Position numbers and translations under genes: made by a program | The notes under the pieces: generated by a model | Told to the model about the DNA's origin: nothing | Seen by the model: the letters and a program-made list of their open reading frames with translations, nothing else | Database searches by the model: none | Part shown: in pieces, positions 59,678-64,000 of the stretch | Position numbering within the stretch: the first letter of the stretch is position 1 | How the letters are laid out: every line of letters begins with the position of its first letter | Source: Fimbriimonadaceae bacterium | GTDB taxonomy: Bacteria > Armatimonadota > Fimbriimonadia > Fimbriimonadales > Fimbriimonadaceae | Direction: 5' to 3' | Length of the DNA stretch: 64,000 bases | Assembly (NCBI GenBank): GCA_019638795.1 | Contig: JAHBTB010000007.1 | Location: forward strand, 1-64,000

Positions 59678-59712
59678 TTGCAAGTTTATGCATGATTGTG
59701 CATAATCATGCA
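59678..59712 (+). promoter_or_regulatory. argR promoter with overlapping ArgR-type operators
   Basis: TTGCAA (59678-59683), 17-base spacer, CATAAT (59701-59706), seven bases before ATG 59714. Two nested perfect inverted repeats cover it: TTATGCA/TGCATAA (59686-59705) and TGCATGAT/ATCATGCA (59689-59712). The A/T-rich TGCAT-type half sites resemble ARG boxes, so the arginine operon is probably autoregulated. Confidence 0.75.
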
Positions 59713-59713
59713 C

Positions 59714-60142
59714 ATGGACGTGGCGCGGGACAAGAGGTTGGATGCGGTCCGCCGGATCTTGGCCCGTCACAAGGTCACGACGCAAGGCGAGTTGGCCGGC
59801 CTCCTGCGCGCCGAAGGCTACGAGGTGACCCAGAGCAGTGTCTCGCGGGACCTCTATGAACTCGGTGTCGCCAAGGTCGGCGGGCGGTACGTCGTCGCGG
59901 GCCGTCCTGGCCTGGCCGGGTCTGGTCTGGTGTCGGCGGTCCCGTGCGGGGCGAACATGGTCGTCCTCAAAACGGAGACGGGCACGGCGTCGCGGGTGGG
60001 GCTCCTGATCGACCAGGGCGGTTATGCCGGAGTCGTCGGGACGATCGCGGGAGACGACACCGTGTTTGTCGCCACGGACGGTGAGGCGAGCACCCGGCGC
60101 CTGGCTGAGGTTTGGGCGGGTGAAGAGGAGTTGAATGGCTGA
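59714..60142 (+). CDS. argR: Arginine repressor ArgR
   Basis: 142 residues from ATG 59714, set by the promoter. N-terminal winged helix (RRILARHKVTTQGELAGLLRAEGYEVTQSSVSRDLYELGVAKV) with the SVSRDL recognition helix, and C-terminal arginine-binding domain with GLLIDQGGYAGVVGTIAGDDTVFVA. It represses arginine synthesis when arginine is bound. Its stop overlaps argG by eight bases, so it heads and controls the operon. Confidence 0.95.
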   Translation: MDVARDKRLDAVRRILARHKVTTQGELAGLLRAEGYEVTQSSVSRDLYELGVAKVGGRYVVAGRPGLAGSGLVSAVPCGANMVVLKTETGTASRVGLLIDQGGYAGVVGTIAGDDTVFVATDGEASTRRLAEVWAGEEELNG

Positions 60143-61334
60143 GAAGGTTGTTTTGGCGTTTTCCGGTGGGCTTGACACCAGTTGGTGCGTCCCCTGGCTG
60201 ATCGAGCAGGGCCACGAGGTTGTCACCGCCACGGTCGACGTTGGCGGAATATCGCCGGAAGAACGAGAGGCGCTGAGGGCGCAGAGCAAGACCCTCGGGG
60301 CGGTCGACCACATCCATGTCGACGCCCGTGAAATGTACTTCGAGGAGGTCGTGCGCTTCCTGCTGGCCGGGAACGTCATGCGAGGCGGGACCTATCCCCT
60401 GTGTGTCGGTAGCGAGCGCGCCCTCCAGGCCCGCGAGTCGGCCCGGGTGGCGGCCCGCGTCGGAGCGACCGCCGTGGCCCATGGGTGCACCGCGGCGGGC
60501 AACGACCAGGTCCGTTTTGATATCGCCCTGCGGGCCTACGCTCCCGACGTGACTGCCTTGGCCCCTATCCGCGACCTTGCCCCAAGCCGGCCCGACCAAG
60601 TGGCGTACCTGAAGGATCGGGGCCTGCCGGTGCCGCCGTTTGGGGCGGATTATTCGGTGAACAGCGGCCTCTGGGGCGTCACGATCGGCGGGAACGAGAC
60701 GAAAACGACTGACCAGACCATCCCCGAGTCGGCCTGGCAGCGCACCCGGGGCGTGTTTGACAGCCCGCCGGAAGAGGAGCGGGTCACCCTCAGCTTCTAC
60801 AAGGGGCGGCCCGACGGACTGGACGGGGTCAAGGGTGACAGTGTGGAAGCGATCGAGAAGCTCGACGTGGTCGCCGCACGTCACGGGATAGGCCGGGGTA
60901 TCCACCTCGGCGAGACGGTCTTGGGGGTCAAGGGCCGGGTGGCGTTCGAGGCTCCGGCCGCGACGTTGCTCGTCGCCGCCCACCGAGAGCTTGAGAAGCT
61001 GGTCATGACCAGCCGTCAAATCGCCGCCAAGGACCAGCTGTCCGCGCTGTACGGCGAGTACGTCCACACCGGGCAGTTTCCCGACCCGGTCTGTCGGGAC
61101 ATCGAGGCGTTCTTGGCCAGTTCGCAGGAACGGGTGACCGGCGAGGTCAAGGTGGTCCTGAGGACCGGGTCGTTCATGGTCGAGGGCGTGACCTCGCCGT
61201 TTTCCCTTCACCGGGCAAGCCGGGCCGTTTATGGCGAGGCGGTCGGTGAATGGGAACCGCGCGACGCCCAGGGCTTTTGCACGATCGTCGGGTTGCCCGC
61301 CGTCTTGCATGCCCGGGCGGGGAGACAACCTTGA
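60135..61334 (+). CDS. argG: Argininosuccinate synthase
   Basis: 399 residues, family length. PP-ATPase loop AFSGGLDTSWC, then TATVDVGG, AHGCTAAGNDQVRFD and YSVNSGLWGVTIGGNE. Joins citrulline and aspartate using ATP. The sequence is of the divergent ArgG branch (shorter motifs such as YPLCVGSERALQA), as in Bacteroidetes, matching the ArgC and ArgF' types here. Coupled to the next gene by TTGA. Confidence 0.95.
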   Translation: MAEKVVLAFSGGLDTSWCVPWLIEQGHEVVTATVDVGGISPEEREALRAQSKTLGAVDHIHVDAREMYFEEVVRFLLAGNVMRGGTYPLCVGSERALQARESARVAARVGATAVAHGCTAAGNDQVRFDIALRAYAPDVTALAPIRDLAPSRPDQVAYLKDRGLPVPPFGADYSVNSGLWGVTIGGNETKTTDQTIPESAWQRTRGVFDSPPEEERVTLSFYKGRPDGLDGVKGDSVEAIEKLDVVAARHGIGRGIHLGETVLGVKGRVAFEAPAATLLVAAHRELEKLVMTSRQIAAKDQLSALYGEYVHTGQFPDPVCRDIEAFLASSQERVTGEVKVVLRTGSFMVEGVTSPFSLHRASRAVYGEAVGEWEPRDAQGFCTIVGLPAVLHARAGRQP

Positions 61335-62386
61335 AGCCCTGCGTGATCGACAAGATCGGGAGCGTCACCCTCAACTGCAACCTGCGGCGTGACGTCAAGC
61401 TGGGGGACGAAATCCGGTGTCAAGAGGGAGACGTCCTCGCGGTGAGGATCAAGAACTCCAAGACCACCTATAACACGATGGAGTTGACGACCGGTCGGTT
61501 CTCCGCTCTCAAGGAGGGTGACGTCGTGGCCGGCGCCTTGGGCCACCGCCGCGCCCTTGGCGGCTATGCCGGGCATATCCCCCCGTCACTCAAGCCGGGC
61601 GACACCGTCAACATCCTCAACATGGGCGGCGTGCTGGGCACGTGCACCTCATGGTCACCGGTGGTCGGCCCGCCCTTTGAATGCGAGGTGCTGGGGCAGG
61701 TCCTTGAGTTTCCCTACCTGGGAAGCCGGGTCGGTGTCCCGGCCAGCATCAAGAACGCCGCCGTCCCCATTGACGAAGAGGTGGACACTCAGGGGCCGCC
61801 GGTCGTCGCCGTGGTCGGAACGTGCATGAACTCGGGCAAGACCGAGGCCGCCATGGCCTTGGTCCAGTACTTCGCCCGCACCGGCTTGCATGTGGCGGCG
61901 GGCAAGACGACCGGGGTGAGCCTGCGGCGCGATGTTTTGGCCATGCTTGACGCGGGGGCGGCGGAAGGGATGACGTTTACCGATTGCGGGGTCGTGACGA
62001 CTTCCGAACTGAACGCCGCCGGGCTGGCCAAGACGATCATGAACCACTTGGGGGCCAAAGAGCCCGACGTGGTCGTCATCGAGCTGGGTGACGGCCTGAT
62101 GGGCGACTACGGCGTCCAGGCGATCCTGGCGGACCCTGGCCTGGCCAAGCGGTTCACCGCCGTGGTGTTGGCCGCCAACGACCCGGTCGGCGCTTGGGGG
62201 GGATGGCGGTTGCTCGCCGACCTCTACGGCATCACGCCGACCGTCGTGACCGGACCGTGCACCGACAACGCCGCGGGTGTCGACGGGCTTCGACGGGAAA
62301 CGGGCCTGCCTGGTGTCAACGCGAGGACGCATCCGGGAGAACTGGCCCGCACTGTCGCGGAGAAGCTGGGGTTGGGGCATGACTGA
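61331..62386 (+). CDS. Unknown P-loop protein embedded in the arginine operon
   Basis: 351 residues from TTG 61331 (overlaps argG stop as TTGA); its stop overlaps argC (ATGACTGA). Two parts: residues 1-150 are beta-rich with VEL/MELTTGRFSALKEGDVVAG, GGYAGHIPPSLKPGDTVNILNMGGVLGTCTSW; residues 155-351 form a P-loop domain with GTCMNSGKTEAA (about 163-174), DCGVVTT, and a Walker-B-like DVVVIELGDGLMGDYG. The NSGKT P-loop and ELGDG resemble dethiobiotin-synthetase/MobB-like NTPases. I cannot name the family. Tight coupling on both sides argues for a role in arginine synthesis or its acylated intermediates. Confidence 0.85.
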   Translation: MKPCVIDKIGSVTLNCNLRRDVKLGDEIRCQEGDVLAVRIKNSKTTYNTMELTTGRFSALKEGDVVAGALGHRRALGGYAGHIPPSLKPGDTVNILNMGGVLGTCTSWSPVVGPPFECEVLGQVLEFPYLGSRVGVPASIKNAAVPIDEEVDTQGPPVVAVVGTCMNSGKTEAAMALVQYFARTGLHVAAGKTTGVSLRRDVLAMLDAGAAEGMTFTDCGVVTTSELNAAGLAKTIMNHLGAKEPDVVVIELGDGLMGDYGVQAILADPGLAKRFTAVVLAANDPVGAWGGWRLLADLYGITPTVVTGPCTDNAAGVDGLRRETGLPGVNARTHPGELARTVAEKLGLGHD

Positions 62387-63386
62387 GGTTCCGGTCGTCG
62401 TCTTGGGCGGTACCGGCTACGTGGCCGGTGAGGCGTTGCGCTTGTTGGCGGGGCACCCTGCCTTTCGAGTCAAGGCGGTGGTGAGCGAGTCCTCGCCGGG
62501 ACAACCTGTCGCTGACGCGTTCCCCCATTTGACGGGCATGCTGGACGGCCTCAACTTTGTCCCCATGGGGGACGCGATGGCCTGCCTGGGCGAGAACCCG
62601 TCATGGGGAGTCGTCTCGGCCTTGCCCCACGGCGCCGCCGCCGAGCGGATCGGCGAGACCCTGGAAGCGGCCGCCAGAGCGGGGGTCACCGCCAAGGTCG
62701 TCGACTTGTCCACCGACTTCCGGTTCGCCGACCCGTCGTCGGGGTTCTTCTGCGGGCTGCCTGATCTGGAGAAGGAGACGCCGGACTGCCACATCGCCGA
62801 GCCAGGCTGTTTCACGACGGCGGCGACCCTGGCCGTCTCTCCGCTCGTGGCGGGAGGATGGGTCGAGGGTGCCGTCGTCGCGAACGGGGTGACGGGGAGC
62901 ACAGGCAGTGGTCGGACTCCGAAGGCGGGCACCCACCACCCCGACCGGCATAGCGGCATGTGGGCCTACGAACCCGTGCGCCACCGTCATGGCCGGGAGA
63001 TGAGCATGCTCATCGGTCGGTTCGGTGAATTGGAAGAGTTCGTCTTCCTTCCCCACTCGGGGCCCTTCGCCCGGGGAATCCACATGACCGTGACCGCCCG
63101 CCTGGCCCGCGACACCGACGCCGCGACCCTGGTCAGCGAGACCGCCGCGTTCTACGGCCACACGCCGTTTGTCTCGGTGTCCACCCGCATGCCCAGCGTG
63201 AAGGAAGTCGTCGGCACAAACCGGTGCCACCTTGGAGTGGCGGTCGAGGGGCGTCGCGTCGTGGTGACCAGTGTCGTGGACAACCTGACCAAGGGGGCCG
63301 CCGGCGGTGGTGTCCAGTGGCTCAACCGGCTCTTCGGACTGCCGCAAGAGACCGGGCTGACTAATCTGGGGGTGGGGTGGTGCTGA
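62379..63386 (+). CDS. argC: N-acyl-gamma-glutamyl-phosphate reductase, Bacteroidetes-type ArgC
   Basis: 335 residues from ATG 62379. Rossmann start VVVLGGTGYVAGEALRLL, catalytic Cys144 in EPGCFTTAATLAVSPL, NGVTGSTGSG and THHPDRHSGMWAYEPVRHRHG, PHSGPFARGIHMTV, and the C-terminal TNRCHLGVAVEGRRVVVTSVVDNLTKGAAGG. The NGVTGSTGSG form with a His-rich loop is that of Bacteroidetes ArgC, whose pathway uses N-succinyl intermediates. Reduces the acyl-phosphate to the semialdehyde with NADPH. Confidence 0.9.
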   Translation: MTEVPVVVLGGTGYVAGEALRLLAGHPAFRVKAVVSESSPGQPVADAFPHLTGMLDGLNFVPMGDAMACLGENPSWGVVSALPHGAAAERIGETLEAAARAGVTAKVVDLSTDFRFADPSSGFFCGLPDLEKETPDCHIAEPGCFTTAATLAVSPLVAGGWVEGAVVANGVTGSTGSGRTPKAGTHHPDRHSGMWAYEPVRHRHGREMSMLIGRFGELEEFVFLPHSGPFARGIHMTVTARLARDTDAATLVSETAAFYGHTPFVSVSTRMPSVKEVVGTNRCHLGVAVEGRRVVVTSVVDNLTKGAAGGGVQWLNRLFGLPQETGLTNLGVGWC

Positions 63387-63387
63387 G

Positions 63388-64000
63388 ATGAGAGACTATT
63401 TGAACCTAGACACCTTGTCGGACCTCGAGATCGCCAATTTGCTGTCGTTGGCCCGGCAACTGGAGCATGACCGCGGGTTCAAGGCCTTGAAGGACAAGGT
63501 GGTCGGCCTCGTTTTCATGAACCCGTCTCTCCGCACCCTGGCGTCCTTCCAGGCTGGAGTCGGGCACCTGGGTGGCACGAGCTTTGTGATCCAGCCGGGC
63601 CAGGGGTCTTGGCAGTTGGAGACCCGCGACGGGGTCCGGATGGACGGGGCCGCGCAGGAGCACATTGACGAGGCTGTCCCCGTCCTCGCCCAGTACTGCG
63701 ACATTTTGGCGGTCCGGTGCTTTGCCGCCGGCAAGGACCTTGGCGAGGACCTGGGCGAGACGATGTTCAAGAAAATCAAGGCCCTGTGCCCGGTGCCTCT
63801 GGTCAACATGGAGTCGGCCTCCGACCACCCGTGCCAGGCCCTGGCGGACTGGAAGACCCTTGACGACCTCGGCATACCGACCGACGGACGTTTTGTGCTG
63901 TCGTGGGCCTATCACCCCAAGGCATTGGCGTACGCGGTGCCGCTGGCCGCCGCTTCCATGGCGGCGCGTCGTGGCATGGACGTCCGCATCTTGCGGCCAG
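63388..64000 (+). CDS. argF': Acylornithine carbamoyltransferase (AOTCase/SOTCase family), 3' end missing
   Basis: The first 204 residues are inside the window. Carbamoyl-phosphate site FMNPSLRT (about 43-50), GTSFVIQPGQGSWQLETRDG, MDGAAQEHIDEA, ESASDHPCQALADW and LSWAYHPKALAYAVP match N-acetyl/N-succinyl-ornithine carbamoyltransferases rather than ordinary OTCases (which have different loops). The residue that sets acyl choice (Glu92 in Xanthomonas AOTCase, Pro90 in Bacteroides SOTCase) is Gln90 here. It makes acylcitrulline from acylornithine. One base after argC. Confidence 0.9.
   Translation, partial: MRDYLNLDTLSDLEIANLLSLARQLEHDRGFKALKDKVVGLVFMNPSLRTLASFQAGVGHLGGTSFVIQPGQGSWQLETRDGVRMDGAAQEHIDEAVPVLAQYCDILAVRCFAAGKDLGEDLGETMFKKIKALCPVPLVNMESASDHPCQALADWKTLDDLGIPTDGRFVLSWAYHPKALAYAVPLAAASMAARRGMDVRILRP

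Follow-up and report, generated by a model that had tools for sequence, protein, structure and literature searches.

A P-loop protein of bacterial arginine operons is a candidate N-acylglutamate synthase

Introduction

Control of arginine synthesis is usually exerted at its first step, which genome surveys have reported missing in many bacteria, for example in Holophagaceae except Acidiparvus (PMC11561045). Xanthomonas-type NAGS/K performs this step as an ArgB kinase fused to a GNAT-type domain (NAT), and is paired with a carbamoyltransferase that carries Glu92. Bacteroidetes run a succinyl pathway, for which a GNAT-family protein, ArgA2 (BT3761), is the predicted N-succinylglutamate synthase (PMC9026213, PMC7311316). 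The diagnostic residues of AOTCase are Glu92, Asn185 and Lys302, and the succinyl counterparts carry A/S/P/V/Q, P and V/I/E (PMC4581275). DgcN, a DUF1611 protein, is a D-glutamate N-acetyltransferase according to the title of PDB entry 7xrj, its NCBIfam name (NF041892) and PMC12363236.

Here, a 351-residue protein, X, is described from the arginine operon of a Fimbriimonadaceae bacterium. X is a widespread arginine-operon protein whose best-supported role is inferred to be N-acylglutamate synthase. It would act at the same step as NAGS/K and, in another phylum, is found in AOTCase operons as NAGS/K is. It shares with ArgA2 the proposed role and a place in an arginine operon, together with a carbamoyltransferase that may be of the succinylornithine type; ArgA2 is a GNAT protein by description, whereas X is a P-loop protein. 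The literature searched includes no paper that links arginine to DUF1611 or to any P-loop protein.

Results

The window, the whole 64,000-nucleotide stretch that was analysed, stops inside a closely packed operon with the order argR-argG-X-argC-argF'-argB-argE-argH (Table 1). The argF' gene runs past the window end and is whole in a second extract of the locus (L029:8388-9392). In the rest of the genome, argF', argB, an ArgE-like M20 deacylase and argH were confirmed downstream by Pfam and NCBIfam; argD is not among the genes of this operon. The argR product scores 98.1 bits against NCBIfam argR_whole, under the cut-off. The reading frame of X has no internal stop. As the preliminary description had it, X overlaps argG by TTGA (61331-61334, the X start and argG stop) and argC (ATG at 62379) by eight bases. 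Relatives at 37-86% identity preserve both frame and neighbourhood, so X is a real gene.

Table 1. Features of the X locus in window coordinates
Feature	Position	Strand	Basis or remark
Weak sigma-70-like site at argR	59678-59706		Promoter scan
argR, arginine repressor, first gene of the operon	59696..60142	+	Pfam Arg_repressor, Arg_repressor_C
argG, argininosuccinate synthase	60135..61334	+	TIGR00032, 299 bits over cut-off
X, candidate N-acyl-L-glutamate synthase	61331..62386	+	ORF 351 aa, TTG start, stop 62384-62386
X N-terminal beta-rich domain	61331..61780	+	Residues 1-150; beta-rich half 1-126 in AlphaFold2 model
X P-loop domain, predicted SIMIBI-class fold	61790..62368	+	Residues 154-346; alpha/beta C-half from 158 (AlphaFold2)
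Walker A GTCMNSGKT	61817..61843	+	Residues 163-171
K192, invariant lysine after strand 2 (K-x-T-G)	61904..61906	+	
D201 and D207, invariant, ahead of G-A pair 209-210	61931..61951	+	
E251 of ELGDG, invariant	62081..62083	+	
argC, N-acyl-gamma-glutamyl-phosphate reductase	62379..63386	+	TIGR01850, 245 bits over cut-off
argF', acylornithine carbamoyltransferase	63388..64000	+	NF003384, 359 bits, cut-off 288
Gln90 of argF'	63655..63657	+	Glu92 position of Xanthomonas AOTCase, acetyl/succinyl switch

Searches of Pfam, NCBIfam and PDB sequences gave X no family match above cut-off, which supports the earlier statement that no known arginine enzyme looks like it. Its best Pfam score is to DUF1611 (PF07755) at 15.1 bits, and the X of locus L042 scores 20.5; neither reaches the gathering score of 25. 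DgcN (NF041892) is absent from the NCBIfam matches at E up to 1. Pfam and NCBIfam gave no match to a GNAT/NAT domain (TIGR01890, PF04768), and Pfam gave none to the ArgJ domain PF01960. Models of BioD or PyrG were not among the NCBIfam matches, and BioD was not found in Pfam either. Dethiobiotin synthetase is the top PDB sequence-profile match (E 0.046), and a PDB search with the single X sequence returned chance matches only. Alignment of X to DUF1611 with hhalign gave P-values near 5e-5 to 1e-4, confident over about 37 columns at the P-loop only. A longer low-threshold alignment was not trusted.

The AlphaFold2 model of X (pLDDT 93.6, pTM 0.90) agrees with the beta-rich front half and P-loop back half proposed earlier, and both motifs cited for the latter, NSGKT and ELGDGLMGDYG, are present. 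The N-terminal domain modelled by itself reached a pLDDT of only 34.5 and is unreliable. With VIA-align, the P-loop domain matches the DUF1611 structures 2g0t (Z 17.4) and 2obn (16.3), DgcN 7xrj (15.7), CTP synthases (up to 17.3), dethiobiotin synthetases (about 15) and HypB (15). By its model, the C-half of X belongs to the SIMIBI P-loop class; the fold match supports this class and not DUF1611 membership, as the scores of its other enzymes are similar. Foldseek with the whole model placed SRP GTPases first, in P-loop-dominated matches whose alignments are long but have an rmsd of about 10 Å, and this kinship was not accepted.

The DgcN superposition covers 185 residues at 3.0 Å rmsd and 17% identity. 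DgcN and X share a GTxxxxGK loop and an E-x-x-G motif, and glutamate N-acylation is named for the one and predicted for the other. With motifs matched by eye, DUF1611 has M or K after GK, and Gln, whereas X has GKT and Lys192. No sequence similarity was seen between their N-terminal halves, the profile alignment being confined to the P-loop. The neighbour of DgcN is dgcA, whereas X lies in an arginine operon. Dethiobiotin synthetase and CTP synthase, ATP-dependent SIMIBI ligases, share the P-loop domain fold; X differs in its extra N-terminal domain, and no biotin or pyrimidine genes were recognised adjacent to it.

Within Walker A, G163, M166, G169 and K170 are invariant in the 63 arginine-linked sequences; at position 171, 61 of them have T and the other 2 have S. 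The pattern GxxxxGK[TS] is conserved family-wide, with G and K in 63/63. Residues K170, T171, K192, D201, D207 and E251 are kept in arginine-linked and distant relatives alike. In the N-terminal domain, Y47, E51 and N97 are invariant in the arginine-linked set, and R56 and R73 are nearly family-wide. Y47, N97, T311, D312 and N330 are invariant or nearly so in the arginine-linked set only; E51 is retained by 3 of 7 distant relatives. The nucleotide-side residues are inferred from sequence to serve a common chemistry, and the remaining conserved ones would read the substrate.

Among the 201 genomes searched in the window's phylum, 16 have X. Fifteen of these hold a strong match, all in the window's family or order, and the sixteenth (G002) holds a distant relative at 30% identity. 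A scan of a genome collection found further relatives at 38-86% identity, mostly in MAGs labelled Gammaproteobacteria; the nearest (86%) comes from an Armatimonadetes-labelled record. Strong X matches are also found in 66 of 379 genomes of a second phylum, the one to which locus L026 belongs. The first set comprises 27 loci with a complete or almost complete X, and argG and/or argC adjoin it in 26. All 14 sampled strong-X loci of the second phylum lie in arginine gene clusters, with argG the only such neighbour visible at L085. The link to argG and argC drawn in the preliminary description thus extends to homologues, which do not sit mostly elsewhere, and no clear match to an unrelated enzyme family emerged.

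All steps except the first are covered by the operons at three loci (L031, L036 and L080), whose genes are argR, G, X, C, D, F', B, E and H. The gap between argC and argF' is filled by argD in several loci (PF00202, 317 bits). Because the argD-bearing operons cover the route from N-acylglutamate through arginine, X is the sole gene left for the first step. In the window's phylum, ArgJ is found in 0 of 15 X genomes and in 168 of 186 others (Fisher p 7e-14, uncorrected for kinship). In the second phylum, it is found in 4 of 66 X genomes and in 207 of 313 without X (p 8e-21, likewise uncorrected for kinship). ArgA over cut-off was not found in the 31 genomes searched, 27 of them with X, and the strong matches were ArgB kinases. 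Weak matches to the GNAT part occur in some genomes, the best at 49 bits (G202), and the window's genome has none.

Six genomes of the family have neither X nor ArgJ, and a recognisable complete pathway is absent where they were inspected. A good carbamoyltransferase match was not found in G040, G143, G177 and G181. G198 has argF-argG-argH only, and G161 shows argF alone within the 17 kb read. A relative that uses ArgJ and not X encodes an apparent ArgD-ornithine carbamoyltransferase fusion of 704 aa (L048:6370-8484, G128), and similar frames of 704-752 aa occur elsewhere among the family's ArgJ genomes.

In the sample from the window's phylum, AOTCase-family matches over cut-off occur in 15/15 genomes with X and in 0/186 others. 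In the second phylum, such matches occur in 94 genomes, of which 61 are strong-X genomes (61 of 66), 24 lack X and score over 530 bits, and 9 remain. Sixteen no-X loci were read from the 24 high-scoring genomes. ArgB in these operons is 434-460 aa and NAT-fused in all 14 cases visible among the 16 loci (PF04768, 147 bits at L127), whereas ArgB in X operons is a bare kinase of 274-309 aa without a NAT domain. In second-phylum AOTCase operons, X and the NAGS domain show non-orthologous exchange. Among the 9 remaining genomes, G364 and G470 hold X-matching fragments, G544 has a NAT-fused ArgB, and G335, G432 and G483 are cut by contig ends. G339, G345 and G430 encode a related carbamoyltransferase, yet X was not found. 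Neither X nor NAT-fused ArgB was seen at their loci (L138, L139 and L136, respectively), and these genomes have no ArgJ match; the clusters perhaps use yet another first enzyme.

Carbamoyltransferases of the no-X operons carry E/N/K at the three diagnostic positions in 16/16. Among the X-linked enzymes compared, position 92 is A/V/P/Q/S/T and never Glu, position 185 is mostly P, and position 302 is V/I/E in many and K in most close relatives of the window. The window's enzyme is mixed (Gln92, Ala185, Lys302), which leaves its acyl group in doubt. X probably makes N-succinylglutamate in many X organisms, judging from these residues, and an acetyl product is possible for the window.

Discussion

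X is proposed as the first enzyme of arginine synthesis, an N-acylglutamate synthase unlike the accepted versions in fold, with a probability of about 0.7. This reading rests on operon completeness, the complementary distribution and the paired carbamoyltransferase type. The structural neighbours of the P-loop half, DgcN among them, also speak for it. Against it speak the four X genomes that hold ArgJ as well, the three genomes with a related carbamoyltransferase in which X was not found, the 21 GNAT-family matches in the window's genome, and a structural match to a broad class with DUF1611 profile similarity at the P-loop only. X would attach an acyl group to the alpha-amino nitrogen of L-glutamate, and ArgB would phosphorylate the resulting N-acylglutamate. 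It would stand in for ArgA or ArgJ as a non-GNAT protein with two domains, one beta-rich and the other a P-loop domain of SIMIBI type. ArgC, ArgD and the acylornithine carbamoyltransferase would then all act on capped intermediates, until the M20 deacylase ArgE takes the cap off. If correct, at least two phyla have replaced the GNAT enzyme with a different protein, inside a full operon and with a succinyl pathway as a candidate. This would correct false "auxotroph" calls and provide a new architecture for glutamate N-acylation.

X could draw its energy from acyl-CoA in the manner of DgcN, or from ATP through an acyl phosphate in the manner of dethiobiotin-synthetase-like ligases, and the two are about equally likely. 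The intact Walker A argues for nucleotide binding. X keeps a fuller nucleotide site than DUF1611, so acyl-CoA transfer and ATP-driven ligation are both possible. A more specific and less likely proposal is that X is an ATP-dependent ligase joining free succinate or another acid to L-glutamate via an acyl phosphate; arginine synthesis would then start with a ligase and not an acyl-CoA transferase. Among the roles suggested in the preliminary description, an acyl-group ligase for a blocked intermediate is retained and specified as forming N-acylglutamate. The evidence does not favour regulation or carrier loading, because argR is already present, no carrier-like gene was seen in the operon, and X swaps with the NAGS domain.

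The cap itself is rather more likely succinyl than acetyl. As a plain ArgA replacement, X would make N-acetylglutamate from acetyl-CoA and the intermediates would be acetylated. The window's carbamoyltransferase, which is above the NCBIfam AOTCase cut-off and keeps Lys302, is compatible with this version, as is the N-acetyltransferase name of the structural relative DgcN. Glu92, present in 16/16 no-X carbamoyltransferases and in 0 of the X-linked ones compared, speaks against it and leaves it doubtful. A different reading makes X a nucleotide-driven accessory, such as a regulator or a metallochaperone-like SIMIBI GTPase acting for example on ArgE, with an unlinked GNAT protein catalysing the first step. 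HypB-type SIMIBI metallochaperones do match the fold of X (Z 15), ArgE is an M20 metallohydrolase, and any one of the 21 GNAT-family matches in the window's genome could be a protein that acylates glutamate. A fused NAGS domain nevertheless replaces X in otherwise similar operons, and X operons are without the NAT domain. ArgE is also present in many no-X operons, and the invariant polar residues of X include neither Cys nor His. An accessory role is therefore improbable, and N-acylglutamate synthesis by X itself is preferred.

It is very improbable that a DgcN/DgcA-like pair supplies N-acetylglutamate, as N-acetyl-D-glutamate that is then racemised, while X does something else. The window's genome does have a DgcN-like gene (NF041892, 213 bits, cut-off 480) beside a DgcA-like gene. 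A DUF1611 match was not found, however, in the X genomes G061, G138, G148 and G165, and a DUF1611 gene is common in the family's ArgJ genomes, where it is unneeded for arginine. The pair (N-acetyl-D-glutamate racemase and N-acetyltransferase) lies at L119:3306-5376 (G000 contig C2, about 242305-244375). It possibly represents a variant D-glutamate pathway, because both genes score well under the NCBIfam cut-offs.

Distant relatives of X form a subfamily at about 30% identity (7 loci, L044 and L093-L098, plus plasmid matches). Arginine genes were not found around them, and the subfamily gave no clue to function. In the tree of X, a long branch parts the arginine-linked sequences, but this split is unsupported (0.06), and with the rooting applied the other sequences are not monophyletic. 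An unannotated X-like protein at 32% identity is encoded in a phage record from human faeces (MT835675.1, 34897-35775; H7). Two Paracoccus plasmids (L147:3018-6525 and L148:3018-6423) encode distant relatives annotated as DUF1611 or dethiobiotin synthase, flanked in both cases by genes for an alpha/beta hydrolase and an ABC transporter to form a conserved three-gene unit. An X-like protein at 25% identity is also encoded on a Priestia megaterium plasmid (NZ_CP085446.1, L149:535-8672). The cluster there includes a PEP mutase, two L-amino-acid-ligase-type ATP-grasp proteins, an ornithine carbamoyltransferase-type protein and an M20 peptidase. It resembles a phosphonate natural-product cluster, and the X-like protein is again paired with an M20 deacylase.
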